Shown piece after piece: positions 899-10,813 of a stretch of DNA of 39,536 nucleotides. The position numbers and the translations under genes are program-made. Numbering within the stretch: the stretch's first letter is position 1; each line of letters opens with the position of its first letter. The notes below the pieces were generated by a model. It was not told the DNA's origin. It made no database searches and saw only the letters and a list, made by a program, of their open reading frames with translations. Source of the DNA: Planctomycetaceae bacterium (GTDB lineage Bacteria; Planctomycetota; Planctomycetia; Pirellulales; UBA1268); assembly GCA_947459185.1 (NCBI GenBank), contig CANHCU010000022.1, positions 1 to 39,536 of the forward strand, given 5' to 3'.

Positions 899-904
899 TA
901 TACT
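899..904 (+). promoter_or_regulatory. Candidate -10 box for the small RNA
   Basis: TATACT differs from the sigma70 consensus TATAAT by one base and stands out in very GC-rich surroundings. No good -35 hexamer lies 16-18 bases upstream. Transcription would start near 911 and run into the terminator at 1097-1129. Confidence 0.35.
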
Positions 905-1006
905 CAAGGCGTCGTTCCCCGGTGACGGCTGGGGAGAAAACAGCCCGGCGGTGATCTCGCAGTGATCACGACGGCTGGGATTCCTTCAACGAGAGGAGGT
1001 GGTCTA

Positions 1007-1045
1007 GTGACGCAAACTGACTGTACGGGAGGGCTGCGCCGATAG
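1007..1045 (+). CDS. Possible 12-codon small ORF inside the small RNA
   Basis: AGGAGGT at 994-1000 is a near-perfect Shine-Dalgarno sequence, six bases before a GTG at 1007. The frame reads MTQTDCTGGLRR and stops at TAG 1043-1045, within the stem region of the three-way junction. No similarity is recognised. Purine-rich runs can arise by chance in such DNA. Confidence 0.25.
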   Translation: MTQTDCTGGLRR

Positions 1046-1096
1046 CGGCGAGTCGACGGGCCTGCCGTTGATGCAGCCCACCAAATGGTTCCTACG

Positions 1097-1129
1097 GCTG
1101 CCGCCCCTTCGGGGGCGGCAGCTTTTTTT
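1097..1129 (+). terminator. Strong rho-independent terminator
   Basis: An 11-bp perfect stem (1097-1107 with 1112-1122) is capped by a TTCG tetraloop and followed by seven T at 1123-1129. The T-tract is only on the plus strand, so it ends a plus-strand transcript. It cannot serve the GYF_2 gene, which reads leftward. Confidence 0.9.
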
Positions 1130-1151: not shown

Positions 1152-1559
1152 TCAGTGCGGCCCAAATACGATCGACAGTGCCAGCATCGCCAAGGCGATC
1201 AGCAGCATGCCCCCAAGGGCATACATCAAGGGCCGGAACGGCTTGCGAAACGGGTCTTCGCCCTCCAGCCACGTCTGCAGCGATGCCTGCCATTCGCGGA
1301 CCGGCTGGCCTCCAGAACCCATCTCGTCGGCCGACGGCACCAGCCCCGAATCCTGGTTCCAGATGCCGCTGTCAAGTTGCGGGACATCGTCGCCGCCGCC
1401 AATCACCTCCTCTCTGAAGTCTCGGAATGGCAGCCACGGGCCGTCCGCAGACTCGGAGACCTCGTCCCGCATCCGGAGCCGCCGTTCCTGCCGCAAGGTG
1501 CGGAGCTTGTCCCGGGTCAACGGTCCTTTGATACGGCCATCCCGCCTCACGTAATACAT
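1152..1559 (-). CDS. GYF_2-domain protein with C-terminal membrane anchor
   Basis: This 135-residue protein begins MYYVRRDGRIKGPLTRDKL, and residues 1-48 follow the GYF_2 (DUF4339) pattern. That pattern is an aromatic start, a basic turn, GP, a leucine-rich helix and then PWLPF near residue 43. GYF_2 domains are thought to bind proline-rich or other peptides. Residues ~50-105 are a polar linker. Residues ~110-132 form one hydrophobic membrane segment (YALGGMLLIALAMLALSIVF), giving a tail-anchored layout with the domain probably cytoplasmic. The Shine-Dalgarno sequence is weak. It is a single-gene unit, with the small RNA beyond its stop and the glucan synthase diverging upstream. The partner is unknown. 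Confidence 0.75.
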   Translation of the reverse strand: MYYVRRDGRIKGPLTRDKLRTLRQERRLRMRDEVSESADGPWLPFRDFREEVIGGGDDVPQLDSGIWNQDSGLVPSADEMGSGGQPVREWQASLQTWLEGEDPFRKPFRPLMYALGGMLLIALAMLALSIVFGPH

Positions 1560-1773
1560 TCAGTCTTCTTCGACCCCACGACTGCCGGAGCCCCGCCTCA
1601 AAAAACACGAGTGTCGGCTTCCCGTGAACGACTGAAGCTCAGTATGACAGTTTGATCGTCAGGACCGCGACCCCGCTGCCAGGCGGGCAAGATACCGTTT
1701 CAGCGGTGCAGCCCCGCCGATGCCGTCCCAGACCGCCATTGGCTTTTCGTACGTCACGGTGCGAGAGTAGAGC

Positions 1774-1803
1774 TTGGCCATCCTTCCCCGGGAGGATGGC
1801 CAA
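1774..1803 (+). promoter_or_regulatory. Long perfect hairpin over a candidate start codon of the glucan synthase
   Basis: TTGGCCATCCT (1774-1784) pairs perfectly with AGGATGGCCAA (1793-1803) and can close further to 12-13 bp. The right arm contains the in-frame ATG at 1796. No T-run follows, so a simple terminator is unlikely. It could mask the 1796 start or act in the leader if translation begins at GTG 1820 or ATG 1838. Confidence 0.5.
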
Positions 1804-1819
1804 TCTTCGGAGCCCCACC

Positions 1820-4800
1820 GTGCATGTTCCATCATTGATGGACATGGTCCGCCGGCTCGCGCCGCGGATCATCGCGGACAAGGACGCCATACAACTCGTC
1901 GCTCCATTCGCCCCGACGGGAGTCGGTTCGCCGCTGCGCGAAAACCGCGAACGTGCCGATCAACGGCCTCTTCGCGGGGAACTGCTGTCCACGGAACAGT
2001 TGCAGCGATATGCCCGCACAATGGCCGGTGCGCATCGCCTCACACAGCACCGCACGTCCGGAAGGCTGCTCACACGGCTGGCTGACAACGAACGAGTGCT
2101 GGCTGAAACCTACAAACTCCTCGCCGCTGCGACCCGGCGGGGCAGACGCATCGCGCCGGCGTCGGAGTGGCTGCTCGATAATTTCTACCTGATCGAGGAG
2201 CAGATCCACTCCACACGCCGCCTCCTGCCCCGCTCCTACCTCGACCAGCTGCCCGGCCTCGCCTCCGATTGCCCGCGGACCTATGCCATCGCGATGGAGC
2301 TGATCGCGCATGCAGACGGCCGCGTGGACTCGTCGGCACTCGACGCCTTCATCGCCGCCTACCAGTCGGTCTGCCCACTCACACTCGGCGAACTCTGGGC
2401 CATGCCGCTTATGCTGCGGCTCGCCCTGATCGAGAATCTTCGCCGCGTTGCCCAGCGGCTCGCGACCGCCCGACATCAACGCGACATCGCCGCTGACTGG
2501 TCCGAGCGGATGCTCGAAGCCGCGGAGAGGCGGCCCGCTGACCTCGTCGCCGTCTTGGCCGACATGACACGGGCCTCCCCTCCCCTGTCCGGCGCCTTCC
2601 TCGCCGAGTTCACGCGGGCGTTGCAGGGCCACTCGCCTGCCTTCGCGCTGGCCGGCACCTGGCTCGAGCATTGCCTCGCCGGACAGGGCCTCACGATCGA
2701 GCAGATGGTGCTGGCCGAAGGGCAGGCGCAGGCCGCCGATCAGGTGTCGGTTGGCAACAGCATCGGCAGCCTGCGGTTCCTCGCGGTGCACGACTGGCGC
2801 GACTTCGTCGCCGAGCACAGCATCGTGGAGCAGACGCTCAACAATGATCCTGCCGCTGTGTATGGCCGGACCGATTTCGCCACCCGTAACCGCTACCGCT
2901 CGGCCGTCGAAACCATCGCCCGGCGGACGGGGCGATCCGAAGAAGAGGTCGCCGAGCGGATCGTGACGCTCGCGCACGAGGCCAGTGTCAGCGGATTCCA
3001 CACGTCGCCTCCGCGTGAATCACACGTCGGCTACTGGCTGGTCGATGGGGGCCGCGACCGCCTCATGCACGAACTCGGCTGTCGCTTTGTCGGAGTGGCC
3101 GCCTGGTTCGCGCCGTGGCGTTCGTGCATCGCGGCAGCGCAGCGGAGCACGCTGGGCCTCCTGCTGGCCGCCATCACGATGCTGACCGCCGCCGGTGTGC
3201 TCACGTTTCTGGAGGCGGCCGGCCTGGAGGGCAGGTCGTGGCCCCTCGTCGTGCCCATGCTGATGGTTGCCCTGCATCTTGCCGTGGGGCTGGTCACCTG
3301 GGCGGCGACGGTCGTCGTCCGGCCACACCCTCTTCCGCGGCTTGATTTCAGGGAGGGCATCCCACCCGATCAGCGCACCCTCGTCGCCGTGCCTGCCATG
3401 CTCACCGACGCGGCCACGGTCGATCGACTCCTCGAAGGCCTGGAGATCCGCTTCCTCGCCAACCGCGATCCGCACCTGCATTTCGCCCTGCTCTCCGACC
3501 TCCCCGATGCCGCGGCGGAATCGCTCCCCTCCGACGAGCCGCTGATCCGGCAGGCCGTTGCCGGGATCGATGCGCTCAATCGGCGTTATCCATCCGATCG
3601 CCACGATTCCTTCCTGCTGCTGCACCGCAGCCGCGCATGGAACGCTCGCGACGGCGTCTGGATGGGCCGCGAACGCAAACGCGGCAAGCTCGCCGATTTC
3701 AACGCCGTGCTCCGCGGAGCTGCCCTCACCGGCCCCGCCGGACGCTTCTCTCACGTGGCTGGAGACGTCGAGTTCCTGCCGCAGGTGCGATTCGTCATCA
3801 CGCTCGACGCCGACACCGACCTGCCCCGCGACGCGGCACGCGAGATGGCGGGCGCCATGGCACACATCCTCAACCGGCCCGTGCCCCACCCCACGCAGCC
3901 CCGCATCATGGCCGGGCATGGCATCATCCAGCCACGTGTGGCGGTGAGTCTGCCAAGCGCGCAGCGGTCGCGTTTCAGCCGCCTCACCTCGGGCACCCCA
4001 GGCATCGATCCCTACACGCGGGTCGTCTCCAACCTCTACCAGGACCTTTTCGACGAGGGGTCCTTCATCGGCAAGGGCATCTACGATGTCGATGCCTTCG
4101 AGCACTGCTGCGGCGTATTTCCCGATCACACGATCCTCAGCCACGACCTGCTCGAGGGCTGCCACTGTCGCTCTGGATTGGAGAGCGACGTGGTGCTGCA
4201 CGAAGACCATCCTTCCAGCTATCTCACCGACGCGCGGCGACGGCACCGCTGGATTCGCGGCGACTGGCAGATCCTCTGGTGGCTGCTCCCGCGCGTCCCG
4301 AATCATGGCGTGGCAGGTGTGAAGAACCCCTTGTCATCCCTCTCCCAGTGGAAGATCTTCGACAATCTCCGGCGGAGCCTCGTGCCTCCGGCGATGCTCG
4401 GCCTACTCATCGGGGCCTGGCTATCGGGCTCGTTGCGGCAGGGCATGGCCGCTGCGGGGCTGGTCGTTCTGGCGGCGCTGCTACCCCCCTTGCTGGCCTG
4501 CCTGCTCGACTTTCTGCGAAAGCCCCACGACGTGCCGCTCTCGACACACCTTGTCGAGGCCGCTCGGTCGGCGACGAGGCCACTGATGCAGGGGCTGCTC
4601 CAGCTTGCCATGCTGCCCTACGAGGCGGGCATCGCGATCGACGCCATCGCGCGGACGCTGGTACGGATGTTCCTCACCCATCGCCGCCTGCTGGAATGGC
4701 GCACCGCAGCCGACACCGAGCGAACGGCGGCGGGCGATCTACCCGGTTTCATTCGCGCGGTGGCCGTCAGCCCGCTGATGGCCATTCTCCTGGCCGCGGT

Positions 4801-7800
4801 TCTCTTCGCATCGGGTCATCCTGACATGCTCGTGGCTGCATGTCCCTGGCTCGTGGCATGGCTGCTCGCGCCGCTCATCGCCTGGTGGATCAGTCTGCCG
4901 CTGCCGCCGCGGACCATCCGACTCTCGGGCCCTGAGCAGCAGTTCCTGGCCACGGCCGGAAGGCGCACCTGGCGGTACTTCGAGGAATATGTGACGGCCC
5001 ATACCAACTGGCTCCCACCCGACAACGTGCAGATGAACGGCGAGTTGGTCGTCGCAGCCCGCACCAGTCCCACCAACATCGCGATGGGATTGCTCTCCGA
5101 TCTGGCTGCCTGCGACTTTGGCTGGTGCTCCGTCGCGCAGCTCGTCGGCCGCGTCGGCCATACGTTCGACACGCTCGGCAGCCTCGAACGGCACCGTGGT
5201 CACCTGTTCAACTGGTACGACATCCACACGCTTGCGCCGCTCTCCCCGCGCTACGTCTCCACGGTCGACAGTGGCAACTTTGTCGGCAGCCTCCTCGTGC
5301 TCGCCGGAGGGCTCGACGAACTGCGGGACGCGGCCGCGGTGTCGCCACGGCTCTTCGCCGGCCTCCAGGACACGCTGCGTGTCCTGACCGAATCCCGCCA
5401 TGGATCGCCGACCGGCAACAGTCGTCAGCGTGATGGTGCGGCCTGCTGGCCCGGGATTCCCGACGAACTCCTACGGGAGTCTGTCACGGTGGCTCGTGCC
5501 GCGGCGGCGCTGCCTCGCCTGATTGCGGCCGGCGCGGCGGCCCGCGGTGATCTCGCCGCCGCCAACGACGCCGAGTGCCGCTGGTGGACAGAGGCCGTGA
5601 TCCACGCCGCCGTCGACCAACTCGCCGACCTCCATCATCTCGCACCATGGACGACGCTGCCGCCGCCGCCCGAGCATTTCTGGCAGCGGGTCACTGCGCA
5701 GTCGAACCCGCGGGCGACCAGTCTCCGCGCGATGCTGGACCATCTCAACGGCAGCCCCACCCTGCGGGAGATCGTCGACCTGCCCGAAGCGGTGCTGCCC
5801 TTGGTGGCGGAAGTGGCGCGGGCGAACGACACCAACCATTCGCCCGATGCCCCGGCCTGCTCGCGCTGGCTGCGACTGCTGCATGCATCGCTCGAGACCG
5901 CCACGCTTCACGCCAGCGAGCGGCGCGACGAACTCGGACAGCTCGCGGACGCCTCCCGGGCGCTGGCCGACATCGACTTCCGATTTCTTTACGATCCGTC
6001 GCGACGGCTCTTCGCCATCGGCTTCAATGCCACCGAGCATCGGCTCGACGCGGGCTACTACGATCTGTTGGCGTCGGAGTCGCGACTGGCCAGCTACGTG
6101 CTCGTCGCCCGCCGCCAGTTCGAACAAGATCACTGGTTTGCGCTCGGCCGACTGCTGACGACCACCGACAGCACACCGACGCTGCTCTCCTGGAGTGGCT
6201 CGATGTTCGAATATCTGATGCCGATGCTTGTGATGCCATCATGGAGCGGCACACTGCTCGACCATTCCTGCCGCGCGGCGGTGCACCGCCAGATCAGCTA
6301 CGCGGAGCAGCGCGGGGTGCCGTGGGGCATCTCGGAATCTGGTTACAACGCCCACGATGTGCAGATGAACTATCAGTACAGGGCCTTCGGCGTGCCGGGG
6401 CTGGGACTGAAACGCGGGCTGGCCGACGACATCGTGATCGCGCCCTACGCCAGCGCCCTGGCGTTGCTCGTCGCGCCGCGAGAGGCCTGCAGCAACCTCC
6501 GGAGAATCGCCGCAGACGGGGGCATGGGTACGTGCGGCTTCATCGAAGCGATCGACTACACGCCCTCCCGCCGCGTGCCCACCAGCACCAGCACCAGCAC
6601 CGGGCGGACCGACTCAGCCGAAACCGAAGCCGCAGCCGGCGGCGGCTTGAGCTTCGCAGGAGGCGTGCCTGTGCGGCAGTTCATGGCCCACCATCAGGGC
6701 ATGAGTCTGCTCGCCTTCGCTTCCGTGCTGCTCGACAGCCCCATGCAGCGGCGATTTATGGCCGATCCGGCGCTCAAGTCGGCGACGCTGCTCCTGCAGG
6801 AGCGGATCCCGAAACTCACGGTCACGGTCTTCCCGCATACCGGCGAGGCGGCCATGGCCCGCGGAATCCCTGCCGCACAGCCAAATGCAATCCGCGTGGT
6901 GACCGACTTCGACGGCCCGCTGCCGGAGGTACACCTGCTCTCCAACGGCCGCTACCACGTCGCCATCTCTGCCGCCGGCGGAGGCTGGAGCCGATGGCGC
7001 GGCCTCGCCGTCACCCGTTGGCGCGAAGACGCCACCCGCGACCACTGGGGACAATTCTGCTACCTGCGGGATCTCGATAGCGGCGCCGTCTGGTCGAATA
7101 CCTGGCAGCCGACGACCCGTGGGAGTCGCCGCGGCGAGGCGGTCTTCATGCAGTCACGGGCGGAGTTCCGTCGCTTCGACGAGCAGATCGAGGCACACAC
7201 GCTCGTCAGCGTATCCACCGAAGACGACGTGGAACTCCGCCGCCTCTCCCTTACCAACCACTCCGAACGCCGCCGCTCGATCGAGGTCACCACCTACGCG
7301 GAGGTGGCGCTCGCCCCGCAGGGCCAGGACGAGTCGCATCCAGCCTTTTCCAACCTCTTCGTGGAGACCGAGATCCTCGCCGGGCGGCCCGCGCTGCTGG
7401 TCACCCGCCGGCCCCGCAGCCCGGAGGAGCGGCCGCCGTGGCTGTTGCACGTCGTCACCGGCAGCTGCCCGACGGAAGCGTGTACGCACCCCGTCGGCAA
7501 GCCTTCGTTCGAGACCGATCGCGGGATCTTTCTCGGCCGCGGCCGCACGCCCCATGATCCCGCCGCCTGCACGAGCGAATCGCAGCACAGGAGCACGCTC
7601 TCCGACACCACCGGCGCCACGCTCGATCCTGTGGTGAGCATCCGTCGCACGGTCGTGCTCGCGCCGGGCGAGACGGTGCGGCTCGACATCGTCACCGGCA
7701 TCGCCGAATCACGCGATCAGGCCGCAGAGATCGCCGTCAAATATTCCGATCCGTGCCTCGCCGATCGCATCATCGAACTGGCCTGGACGCGGGGCGCGAT

Positions 7801-10800
7801 CATGCTGCAGCAGCTTGCGATCTCGGAGCAGGAGGCGCAGGCCTACGGAAGGCTGGCTGGGTCGCTGATCCACGCGTCTCGGCTGCGACGCACGAGCCCG
7901 GCGGTGATCGCCCGCAACCGCCGTGGCCAGTCGGGGCTGTGGGGGCATGGTATCTCGGGTGACCTGCCGATCGTGCTGGTTCGCATCCGTGATCGCCACC
8001 AACTCGAGCTCGTGCAGCAGGCGATTCGCGGGCACGCCTGGTGGCGGATGCACGGCCTCGACGTGGACCTCGTCATCTGGAACGAAGACGACTCCGTCTA
8101 CCGTCAGGTGCTGCACGAGTCGATCCTCGACCTGGTCTCCGCCAGTCCGGAGGCCGGGCTCATCGACCGCCCAGGCGGTATCTTTGTGCGCCGAGGTGAA
8201 CAGCTCTCCGAGGAAGACCGGGTGCTGCTGCAAGCCTCCGCCCGCATCATGCTCACCGACGAAGCTGGCACGCTGGTCGAGCAGGTGGAGAAGCGTGGCC
8301 GATCGGAAATCACGCCCCCCCCACTCAGGCCGCGGCGGCGGCGTGCACAGCCTGCATCGGCTGCCACCGCCGCCGACCTGGAGCCGGGGCCGAAACCGTC
8401 CGAGCTCCACGCCTTCAACGGCCTCGGCGGCTTCACGGCTGATGGGAGCGAATATGTGATCCTGCTCCGCCCGGGCGCCTGCACGCCCGCACCATGGGTC
8501 AATTGCCTGGCCAATCCCCGGATTGGCACCGTGGTCTCCGAATCGGGCAGCGGCTGCACGTGGGTGGACAACAGCCACGAGTTCCGGCTCACACCCTGGA
8601 CCAACGATCCGGTCTCCGACATGGGCGGCGAGGCGATCTACATTCGCGACGAAGACAGCGGCCGCTTCTGGTCGCCCACGCCTCAGCCGGCCCGCGGTCG
8701 CGGCACCTATGCCGTGCGGCACGGGGTCGGCAGCACCGTCTTCGAACATGCCGACGACGGACTCGCCTCCGAACTCACGCTCTTCGTCGCCGAGCACGAA
8801 CCGGTGAAATTCGTGCGACTCACGATCACCAACACCTCCGGCCGGCCGCGGGCCTTGTCGATCACGGGCTACTGGGAGTGGGTACTCGGTGAAATCCGCA
8901 CCCGGTCGCTGATGCAGGTCGTCACCGAGATCGATCAACTCACCGGCGCCCTGTTCGCCCGCAACGCGTTCACTGGCGAATTCGCCGGCATGGTCGCCTT
9001 CGTCGATGCGAGCGAGCTGGCTCGCACCGTGACCGGCGACCGCACCGAGTTCATCGGCCGCAACGGCTCGCTCGCGGCGCCGGCGGCGCTCGAGCGGATG
9101 CGGCTCTCCGGCCGCGTGGGGGCGGGCTACGACCCGTGCGCGGCGATGCAGGTGCAGGTGCTGCTCGACGAGGGTGAGTGTCGCACGGTCGTCTTCACGC
9201 TCGGCGCGGCACAGGGCGTGGCCGAGGCGCAGCGGCTCGTGCAGCAGTTCCGCGGGGAACTGGCGGCGGAGCAGGAATGCGTCGCGATGCGGGAGGGGTG
9301 GCGGCATCGGCTCGCGGCGGTGCAGATCGAGTCGCCCGACCCGGCTGTCGATGCGCTCGTCAACCACTGGCTGTTGTACCAGGTCGTCTCGTGCCGGCTC
9401 TGGGGTCGAACATCGCTCTATCAGTCATCGGGGGCTTACGGCTTCCGCGATCAACTCCAGGATGCGATGGCGCTCGTGCACACCGCCCCCGAACTGCTTC
9501 GCGAGCACCTGCTCCGCGCTGCGGGCCGACAGTTCGAGGAGGGCGACGTGCAGCACTGGTGGCATCCTCCGGAGGGCCGCGGCATCCGCACGCACTGTTC
9601 CGACGACTTCCTCTGGCTGCCGGCGGCGGTCTGCCGCTACGTGCAGGCGACTGGCGACACGGGCGTGCTCGACGCGCCGGTGCCCTTCCTGCAAGGCCGC
9701 GTGCCCCGGGCCGACGAGGAATCGGTCTACGACATGCCCCAGTCGGGCCCCACCACCGCTTCACTCTACGACCACTGCGTTCGGGCGATCGAACGCGGGC
9801 TCCACTTCGGCGTCCACGGCCTGCCGCTCTTTGGCGGCGGCGACTGGAACGATGGCCTGAACCTCGTGGGGCACAAGGGCCACGGCGAGAGCGTCTGGCT
9901 GGCGTTCTTTCTCTACGACGTGCTCAGTCGCTTCGCTGACATTGCCGAACAGCGTGGCGACGTCGTCATGGCGGATCGCTGCTCCATCGAAGCGGGTCGT
10001 CTACGGGGCAATGTGGACGACACCGCCTGGGACGGATCCTGGTATCGCCGCGGCACGTTCGACGACGGACTGCCGCTCGGGTCGGTCAGCTCGACCGAAT
10101 GCCGGATCGACTCTGTCTCGCAGAGCTGGGCGGTGCTGTCGGCCGCGGCCCCACAGGCGCGGGCCGCGGAGGCGATGGCCAGCGTCGATGCGTTGCTCGT
10201 GTCGCGGTCCGATCGACTGGTGAAGCTCCTCGCTCCCCCCTTCGACACCGCACCGCTCGAGCCTGGTTACATCAAGGGCTATCCACCGGGAGTCCGCGAG
10301 AACGGAGGCCAATACACCCATGCTGCCGTCTGGACGGCGATGGCCTTCGCGGCCCTGGGCGACCACGCCCGCGCCTGGGAACTGTTCCAGCTCATGAACC
10401 CGGTGAACCACGGCGACAGCGCCGAAGCGATCGCCACCTATCGCGTCGAGCCCTACGTGGTCGCGGCCGACATCTATGCCGTCACGCCGCACACCGGCCG
10501 TGGCGGCTGGACCTGGTACACCGGCTCGGCCAGCTGGATGTATCGGCTGCTCGTCGAGTCGCTGCTGGGCATCGAACGGGAAGGCACGGTGCTCAGACTG
10601 TCGCCCCATCCGCCCCGCGACTGGCCCAGCTTTACAGTCCGTTACCGCTATTATGAAACGACCTTTCGGATCACGGTTCGCCATCCGGGGCACGGCGTCC
10701 GTGAGGCCGGACCGATCCGTACCATGGTGGTCGATGGCGTTCCGCAGGCCAACCATGCGATCCCGCTCGTTGATGACCGCCAGGAACATGTGATCGACAT

Positions 10801-10813
10801 CGAATTGGCATGA
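1820..10813 (+). CDS. ndvB: Cyclic beta-1,2-glucan synthase (NdvB/Cgs family, GT84 + GH94)
   Basis: This giant inner-membrane enzyme is expected to prime, elongate and cyclise beta-1,2-glucan from UDP-glucose. In other bacteria the product is a periplasmic osmoregulator. Numbering here is from ATG 1796. An N-terminal region has the family motif EWLLDNFYLIEEQI, then two membrane spans near 440-505. The GT84 domain has DADTD (671-675), Glu803-Asp804 in place of the usual TED, and the RxxRW-type motif RRHRW about 15 residues later. More membrane spans follow. The second half carries the glucoamylase-like and glycoside phosphorylase-like (GH94) parts, with GGGDWNDG at 2680-2687 and candidate acid Asp2686. 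Starts are possible at ATG 1796 (inside a hairpin, no spacing from GGGAGG), GTG 1820 (GGAG seven bases upstream, preferred) or ATG 1838. The frame is open back to 1652, but that part is not family-like. The stop overlaps the next start. Confidence 0.93.
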   Translation: MHVPSLMDMVRRLAPRIIADKDAIQLVAPFAPTGVGSPLRENRERADQRPLRGELLSTEQLQRYARTMAGAHRLTQHRTSGRLLTRLADNERVLAETYKLLAAATRRGRRIAPASEWLLDNFYLIEEQIHSTRRLLPRSYLDQLPGLASDCPRTYAIAMELIAHADGRVDSSALDAFIAAYQSVCPLTLGELWAMPLMLRLALIENLRRVAQRLATARHQRDIAADWSERMLEAAERRPADLVAVLADMTRASPPLSGAFLAEFTRALQGHSPAFALAGTWLEHCLAGQGLTIEQMVLAEGQAQAADQVSVGNSIGSLRFLAVHDWRDFVAEHSIVEQTLNNDPAAVYGRTDFATRNRYRSAVETIARRTGRSEEEVAERIVTLAHEASVSGFHTSPPRESHVGYWLVDGGRDRLMHELGCRFVGVAAWFAPWRSCIAAAQRSTLGLLLAAITMLTAAGVLTFLEAAGLEGRSWPLVVPMLMVALHLAVGLVTWAATVVVRPHPLPRLDFREGIPPDQRTLVAVPAMLTDAATVDRLLEGLEIRFLANRDPHLHFALLSDLPDAAAESLPSDEPLIRQAVAGIDALNRRYPSDRHDSFLLLHRSRAWNARDGVWMGRERKRGKLADFNAVLRGAALTGPAGRFSHVAGDVEFLPQVRFVITLDADTDLPRDAAREMAGAMAHILNRPVPHPTQPRIMAGHGIIQPRVAVSLPSAQRSRFSRLTSGTPGIDPYTRVVSNLYQDLFDEGSFIGKGIYDVDAFEHCCGVFPDHTILSHDLLEGCHCRSGLESDVVLHEDHPSSYLTDARRRHRWIRGDWQILWWLLPRVPNHGVAGVKNPLSSLSQWKIFDNLRRSLVPPAMLGLLIGAWLSGSLRQGMAAAGLVVLAALLPPLLACLLDFLRKPHDVPLSTHLVEAARSATRPLMQGLLQLAMLPYEAGIAIDAIARTLVRMFLTHRRLLEWRTAADTERTAAGDLPGFIRAVAVSPLMAILLAAVLFASGHPDMLVAACPWLVAWLLAPLIAWWISLPLPPRTIRLSGPEQQFLATAGRRTWRYFEEYVTAHTNWLPPDNVQMNGELVVAARTSPTNIAMGLLSDLAACDFGWCSVAQLVGRVGHTFDTLGSLERHRGHLFNWYDIHTLAPLSPRYVSTVDSGNFVGSLLVLAGGLDELRDAAAVSPRLFAGLQDTLRVLTESRHGSPTGNSRQRDGAACWPGIPDELLRESVTVARAAAALPRLIAAGAAARGDLAAANDAECRWWTEAVIHAAVDQLADLHHLAPWTTLPPPPEHFWQRVTAQSNPRATSLRAMLDHLNGSPTLREIVDLPEAVLPLVAEVARANDTNHSPDAPACSRWLRLLHASLETATLHASERRDELGQLADASRALADIDFRFLYDPSRRLFAIGFNATEHRLDAGYYDLLASESRLASYVLVARRQFEQDHWFALGRLLTTTDSTPTLLSWSGSMFEYLMPMLVMPSWSGTLLDHSCRAAVHRQISYAEQRGVPWGISESGYNAHDVQMNYQYRAFGVPGLGLKRGLADDIVIAPYASALALLVAPREACSNLRRIAADGGMGTCGFIEAIDYTPSRRVPTSTSTSTGRTDSAETEAAAGGGLSFAGGVPVRQFMAHHQGMSLLAFASVLLDSPMQRRFMADPALKSATLLLQERIPKLTVTVFPHTGEAAMARGIPAAQPNAIRVVTDFDGPLPEVHLLSNGRYHVAISAAGGGWSRWRGLAVTRWREDATRDHWGQFCYLRDLDSGAVWSNTWQPTTRGSRRGEAVFMQSRAEFRRFDEQIEAHTLVSVSTEDDVELRRLSLTNHSERRRSIEVTTYAEVALAPQGQDESHPAFSNLFVETEILAGRPALLVTRRPRSPEERPPWLLHVVTGSCPTEACTHPVGKPSFETDRGIFLGRGRTPHDPAACTSESQHRSTLSDTTGATLDPVVSIRRTVVLAPGETVRLDIVTGIAESRDQAAEIAVKYSDPCLADRIIELAWTRGAIMLQQLAISEQEAQAYGRLAGSLIHASRLRRTSPAVIARNRRGQSGLWGHGISGDLPIVLVRIRDRHQLELVQQAIRGHAWWRMHGLDVDLVIWNEDDSVYRQVLHESILDLVSASPEAGLIDRPGGIFVRRGEQLSEEDRVLLQASARIMLTDEAGTLVEQVEKRGRSEITPPPLRPRRRRAQPASAATAADLEPGPKPSELHAFNGLGGFTADGSEYVILLRPGACTPAPWVNCLANPRIGTVVSESGSGCTWVDNSHEFRLTPWTNDPVSDMGGEAIYIRDEDSGRFWSPTPQPARGRGTYAVRHGVGSTVFEHADDGLASELTLFVAEHEPVKFVRLTITNTSGRPRALSITGYWEWVLGEIRTRSLMQVVTEIDQLTGALFARNAFTGEFAGMVAFVDASELARTVTGDRTEFIGRNGSLAAPAALERMRLSGRVGAGYDPCAAMQVQVLLDEGECRTVVFTLGAAQGVAEAQRLVQQFRGELAAEQECVAMREGWRHRLAAVQIESPDPAVDALVNHWLLYQVVSCRLWGRTSLYQSSGAYGFRDQLQDAMALVHTAPELLREHLLRAAGRQFEEGDVQHWWHPPEGRGIRTHCSDDFLWLPAAVCRYVQATGDTGVLDAPVPFLQGRVPRADEESVYDMPQSGPTTASLYDHCVRAIERGLHFGVHGLPLFGGGDWNDGLNLVGHKGHGESVWLAFFLYDVLSRFADIAEQRGDVVMADRCSIEAGRLRGNVDDTAWDGSWYRRGTFDDGLPLGSVSSTECRIDSVSQSWAVLSAAAPQARAAEAMASVDALLVSRSDRLVKLLAPPFDTAPLEPGYIKGYPPGVRENGGQYTHAAVWTAMAFAALGDHARAWELFQLMNPVNHGDSAEAIATYRVEPYVVAADIYAVTPHTGRGGWTWYTGSASWMYRLLVESLLGIEREGTVLRLSPHPPRDWPSFTVRYRYYETTFRITVRHPGHGVREAGPIRTMVVDGVPQANHAIPLVDDRQEHVIDIELA
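6580..6612 (+). repeat. ACCAGC hexamer microsatellite inside the glucan synthase gene
   Basis: Alternating ACC and AGC codons give a TSTSTSTG stretch followed by a Glu/Ala/Gly-rich run. The segment sits between the conserved EAIDYTPSR and FMAHHQGMSLLA blocks of the family, where homologues normally have a short loop. It is an in-frame, low-complexity insertion that is probably surface exposed. Confidence 0.6.

Follow-up and report, generated by a model that had tools for sequence, protein, structure and literature searches.

A conserved structured RNA of Planctomycetota with an extended Shine–Dalgarno sequence and a candidate mini-ORF

Introduction

Two Rfam families of bacterial small RNA resemble the locus described here. 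The consensus of the CC2171 sRNA (RF01867), found in Caulobacter and other Alphaproteobacteria, contains GAAAGGAGGUGAUCCAGUG and has a terminator at its end, as does our locus, while that of the actinobacterial Ms_IGR-5 sRNA (RF02471) opens with the Shine–Dalgarno-like GGAAGGAGGUGGUCC and continues into structure and a terminator, again much as here. Dual-function and leader-peptide RNAs form a further point of reference; one of them, rnTrpL/peTrpL of Sinorhizobium, is leaderless and belongs to the trp attenuator (PMC10117765). The Rhodopirellula-1 motif, reported from Proteobacteria and, like our RNA, from Planctomycetes, is of uncertain RNA status, marked as cis-regulatory and listed in the published table without an Rfam accession (Weinberg 2010, PMC2864571); our comparison with it is by description only. 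A search of the literature did not find a planctomycete RNA of the present type described.

We analyzed a locus in a 39,536-nt stretch of DNA from a Planctomycetaceae bacterium, the whole of which we call the window. A preliminary description had proposed that the locus encodes a small structured RNA of a new type, belonging to none of the known classes and equipped with a promoter and a terminator of its own, and the analysis supports that proposal: the planctomycete RNA is a real, new RNA family that is absent from Rfam. What that description did not contain is a mini-ORF preceded by an unusually extended complement of the 16S rRNA 3′ tail, and this element dominates the comparison below.

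Results

Transcript signals and genomic surroundings

The whole predicted RNA covers about 219 nt of the plus strand (911–1129). A −10 element, TATACT, is present at 899–904 (+), as originally noted, and would place the transcription start near 911. Of 26 family copies, 14 have a box that matches TATAAT at 5/6 or 6/6 positions (A required at position 2, T at position 6) and lies 24–25 nt before the loop of the first hairpin; shuffled sequences give 0.31 (maximum 2) at equal distance, so that the box exceeds chance expectation. The remaining 12 copies have no TATAAT-like box at this distance, and a consensus scan found no promoter with a −35 element. At the 3′ end lies an intrinsic terminator (1096–1129, +) with a UUCG loop and seven T, as claimed; its stem is 12 bp (10 of them G-C), not 11 bp. 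The terminator, GGCTGCCG...T(n), is conserved in the 26 aligned copies, and the linker between core and terminator is very variable in length. The stable hairpins that had been pointed out are present. The predicted fold energy of 911–1130 is −106.9 kcal/mol vs −88.7 ± 4.9 kcal/mol in dinucleotide shuffles (z = −3.7), a difference of 18 kcal/mol, and it is better than that of 200/200 shuffles.

The left neighbor of the RNA encodes a Resolvase-domain protein (3–653, −), the right one a GYF_2-like protein whose match is below the curated cut-off (1152–1559, −). Neighbors are not the same among carriers, and from genus to genus the downstream genes change in both identity and orientation. Because the neighbors differ, the RNA is tied to no single gene, and it would therefore act on its own or in trans. 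A phage or plasmid origin was rejected, as no matches were obtained. Three further features of the surroundings may be recorded. The leftmost frame (3–653, −) carries a long extension ahead of the Resolvase N-terminal domain and runs off the contig end; a 3053-aa open frame at 1652–10813 (+) looks, by eye only, like cyclic beta-glucan synthases; and in family f36 (L063, L064, L091) the RNA sits between GluQ-like tRNA synthetase and release-factor-2-like genes, both recognized by eye.

Distribution and novelty

The core of the RNA (913–1080) is conserved across most genomes of the host family, and a BLAST query with 890–1135 gave full or core-length matches in most of them. Two covariance models were used, R1 built from 26 copies and R2 from 45 diverse copies. 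R1 finds the RNA in most of the family, with weak matches elsewhere in the order and in other classes. R2, at E ≤ 0.001, finds it in 106/197 sampled genomes of the order and 76/294 of the phylum, nearly always once per genome; the E-values of both models are rough, and the weakest counts are slightly inflated since some weak R2 matches are antisense to the 16S 3′ end (G044, G057). Conservation over a large part of the phylum, usually as a single copy, suggests an important function. A second, nearly identical copy of the core lies near a contig end in the bacterium's own genome (C14:70–237), and one other genome (G017) also has two copies.

Two of the checks that the preliminary description had suggested, a comparison among relatives and a search of Rfam, thus come out in its favor: conservation of the RNA extends far outside the strain, and no Rfam covariance model reaches its gathering score anywhere in the window. 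A tRNA and tmRNA search also found none there.

A covarying fold

The 5′ part folds into two domains. The first is an 8-bp hairpin at 916–935 (+) with the loop GACG (924–927), helix 1 of A2, in which both sides vary in 8/8 pairs and 97.2% of cells are paired. Domain 2 (944–979, +; helices 2 and 3 of A2) consists of a helix, 944–949/974–979, around a hairpin, 951–956/964–969, leaving GACG 970–973 unpaired, and has both-side changes in 12/12 pairs. Further downstream, an outer helix at the end of the ORF (1031–1037/1073–1079, +) is nearly invariant within the family; phylum-wide, 6/6 modelled pairs vary on both sides and 98.4% are paired. Across 77 copies, 96.5% of cells are paired in the model structure, compared with 26–52% when the structure is slid along the alignment, and both-side change occurs in 37/39 pairs, the changed cells numbering 329 vs 58 ± 9 in shuffles. 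Since the alignment was made to fit the model, the percentage paired is biased towards it; the count of both-side changes carries more weight. Read from this model-fitted alignment, the covariation of the two 5′ domains and of the helix around 1031–1079 is overwhelming.

The region enclosed by the outer helix is less clear-cut. It had been described as a closed three-way junction with inner hairpins at 1038–1049 and 1054–1070. These helices can be drawn as proposed and the outer one is well supported phylum-wide, but the inner hairpins compete with a rod-like hairpin, 1044–1053/1060–1069 (+), closed by the loop CGACGG (1054–1059). Eight of the ten rod pairs are kept in 34/34 copies, four of these eight with variation, and the remaining two are disrupted in 10 and in 20 of the 34. 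The CGACGG loop reappears 3′ of the stop codon in most distant copies. Hairpin 1038–1049 loses its two end pairs in L085 and is interrupted by a 79-nt insertion in L105, where the rod sequence can be read intact downstream. The rod thus appears to fit the variation slightly better, a moderate preference, and the view that the three-way junction is the sole fold has been set aside. The two are not fully separable because most of the bases concerned are invariant in the family, and they may alternate. With the loop of the rod, GACG recurs three times in the RNA, at 924–927, at 970–973 and within 1054–1059. The L105 insertion itself (about 2310–2390) contains an inverted repeat, TGACTC...GAGTCA, immediately 3′ of the mini-ORF stop.

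An extended Shine–Dalgarno sequence and a mini-ORF

Between the 5′ domains and the outer helix lies an extended Shine–Dalgarno (SD) sequence, AGAGGAGGTGGTC (992–1004, +), with a predicted 13-nt pairing to the 16S rRNA 3′ tail (GAUCACCUCCUUU), nearly all of whose single-stranded part it complements. The bacterium's own assembly holds no exact match to the tail pattern, and the tail was taken from relatives, in which it reads CTGGATCACCTCCTTT. In 11/11 distinct family variants all 13 SD positions pair with the tail, every change being G-U compatible, and in many copies the complementarity extends to the start codon. Parts of the SD fall in weak local hairpins in some lineages. We also considered an upstream SD-sequestering hairpin as a common switch and rejected it, the CCTT/AAGG pairing being absent in some lineages (L017, L026).

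The preliminary description saw no convincing plus-strand gene in this stretch. That view does not hold: the exceptional ribosome-binding site is followed by a 12-codon mini-ORF, MTQTDCTGGLRR (1007–1045, +), starting with GTG (1007–1009) and ending with TAG (1043–1045), whose start, stop and frame are kept. All 38 family copies measured stop at codon 12 or 13 (TAG 24, TAA 10, TGA 4) and start with GTG (36) or TTG (2), their length varying by exactly one codon through a 3-nt in-frame indel; a 39th copy, L053, was left out of this count for its shorter spacer. Among 40 further phylum matches, drawn from genomes outside model building, 39 have an ORF of 10–22 codons after a GGAGG element (36 of them within 10–15), with all three stops in use and a GUG or UUG start in 34/39. 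The insertion in L105 falls right after the stop and leaves its position unchanged; L022–L025 carry a 1-nt insertion 3′ of the stop, which likewise stays in place. The encoded peptides diverge strongly between lineages (e.g., VSDCTKGLHS, VEYVCTSRRGGSA and MIVRGSIRRWVR); recurrent in many lineages are a Cys codon around codon 5 and an end rich in Gly/Arg. Judged by these comparisons, start, frame and stop are maintained and most of the peptide sequence is not. TGG was never found at the stop position; within the rod the bases of the stop are able to pair (T-R-R vs U-U), so that the TAG/TAA/TGA pattern could be partly structural.

Comparison with described RNAs

The AAAGGAGGUGAUCCAGUG element with a downstream terminator that marks RF01867 is found here as the variant AGAGGAGGTGGTCTAGTG at 992–1009, followed by the terminator at 1096–1129, and the best RF01867 match in the whole genome of the bacterium is this RNA. 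Its score in the window, 22.7 bits, and the highest in distant copies, 37 bits (L057), do not reach the gathering cut-off of 75 bits. The closing helix of RF01867, CAUUGUC/GACAAUG, has its pairs mostly broken or missing in the planctomycete RNA alignments; conversely, the CC2171 consensus lacks the 5′ two-hairpin domain and the GACG hairpins, and its helices pair different regions.

A scan of bacterial genomes for AAAGGAGGTGATCCANTG returned at least 80 loci, mostly from Alphaproteobacteria among the matches listed, and at nearly all loci among the matches listed an ORF of 9–31 codons follows instead of a gene. Each of the 24 Rhodobacterales copies among the matches listed has an ORF of 18 codons, and all three stops occur in this set. 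The CC2171 cut-off is reached by 2/18 AAAGGAGGTGATCCANTG loci scanned. R1 gives scores of 21–23 bits to alphaproteobacterial copies, which we discarded as worthless for homology, the loci having been pre-selected for the SD. As far as their sequences tell, the planctomycete RNA and the CC2171 types share an SD-plus-mini-ORF design; common descent is unproven. This likeness suggests a new reading, as mini-ORF RNAs, of the ‘non-coding’ CC2171-type sRNAs found in Alphaproteobacteria, in species that are culturable and genetically tractable. At the CC2171-type loci of Alphaproteobacteria (L110–L189) a full-tail SD is followed by a mini-ORF, which in Bradyrhizobium is VSYLKRCHLAGIAR-like. Single AAAGGAGGTGATCCANTG-type loci occur, among the matches listed, in Krumholzibacteria, Myxococcota, Gemmatimonadota, Spirochaetia and Nitrospinota.

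For Ms_IGR-5 the likeness does not extend to the score, RF02471 giving the planctomycete RNA only 21.9 bits (in L063) against a cut-off of 45. With dual-function and leader-peptide RNAs such as rnTrpL it has in common a short transcript, a very short translated ORF and a regulatory structure, all predicted here; unlike rnTrpL it has a maximal SD, is a stand-alone gene and has no fixed downstream gene. The RNA is best filed with the short-ORF or dual-function kind, and its ribosome-directed design is unusual.

Discussion

The RNA probably works by engaging ribosomes, as its sequence features suggest. Direct ribosome sensing or buffering is what such a design points to, with its maximal complement of the 16S tail and a mini-ORF that terminates at a fixed RNA structure. 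We lean, with somewhat more than even confidence, towards a structured RNA that stands alone and has a translated mini-ORF at its center, and in which the ribosome opens the helix at the end of the ORF. On this model 30S subunits would be captured via the full-tail duplex and would initiate mostly at GUG. In many copies the full duplex runs as far as the start codon, and on that ground we propose that a short productive 16S pairing may alternate with a long non-productive one. The 70S ribosome would then translate about 12 codons, halt at the foot of the CGACGG hairpin and open the ORF-terminal helix (1031–1037/1073–1079). The RNA would thereby be a ribosome-gated regulator, ribosome traffic setting an exposed conformation with the three GACG sites. 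Its output would be trans-acting, and what it regulates is conjecture.

The same complementarity could instead let a non-coding RNA bind directly to the 16S 3′ tail, for instance to hold idle 30S subunits or to aid 16S 3′-end maturation, the ORF being incidental. A duplex of at least 13 nt is far beyond the needs of initiation and in many copies runs up to the start codon, the starts are mostly GUG or UUG (38/38 in the family, 34/39 in the further set), and the stop bases are able to pair in the rod. An incidental ORF does not, however, account for a frame, a length and all three stops kept in the family, the phylum and the 24 Rhodobacterales copies, nor for family indels in multiples of three, and we consider this explanation unlikely, if worth keeping in mind. 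If instead the RNA were a small mRNA whose 10–22 aa peptide is the functional molecule, the maintained translation signals and the recurrent Cys codon and Gly/Arg-rich end would fit. The peptide is almost wholly different between classes, though, while the SD and the helices persist; the sequence specifying the Gly/Arg end that recurs is a strand of an RNA helix; and the long conserved 5′ domain is left unexplained, all of which makes a functional peptide rather improbable.

Neighboring sequence bears on a leader-peptide attenuator, in which the position of the ribosome on the mini-ORF would decide whether transcription passes the terminator and enters a downstream gene. In the window GCAGCC (1073–1078) can indeed pair with the terminator arm GGCTGC (1096–1101), and f36 has its release-factor-2-like gene next downstream. 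The alternative terminator pairing is not seen outside the family, however, the next gene in the window (1152–1559) is on the opposite strand, and instead of a conserved co-oriented downstream gene we find neighbors whose identity and strand vary between genera, for which reason attenuation of a neighbor was rejected as a general explanation and is given very little weight. Less credible still, and close to negligible, is the idea that the RNA is 6S RNA or another known housekeeping RNA in diverged form. About one copy per genome, a length of 220 nt and the lack of a 6S match in most of these genomes would suit it; against this, the 6S covariance model (RF00013) has no match in the bacterium's own genome, a relative (G007) has a separate 6S-like match elsewhere, below the cut-off, the window has no tRNA, tmRNA or Rfam match, and the architecture differs.

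Returning to the RNA with a translated mini-ORF, a wider and distinctly tentative extension, which we think has a limited chance of being right, is a class of stand-alone RNAs spanning several phyla (Planctomycetota, Alphaproteobacteria and single cases in several others) that would capture ribosomes via the entire 16S 3′ tail and translate a throw-away mini-ORF. The act of translation, not the peptide, would be the signal, and the RNA a dedicated sensor or buffer of free ribosomes.

Three loci (L074, L075 and L306) show a further peculiarity: downstream of the ORF they carry a mimic of the 16S 3′ tail, GGATCACCT, which could pair with their own SD.
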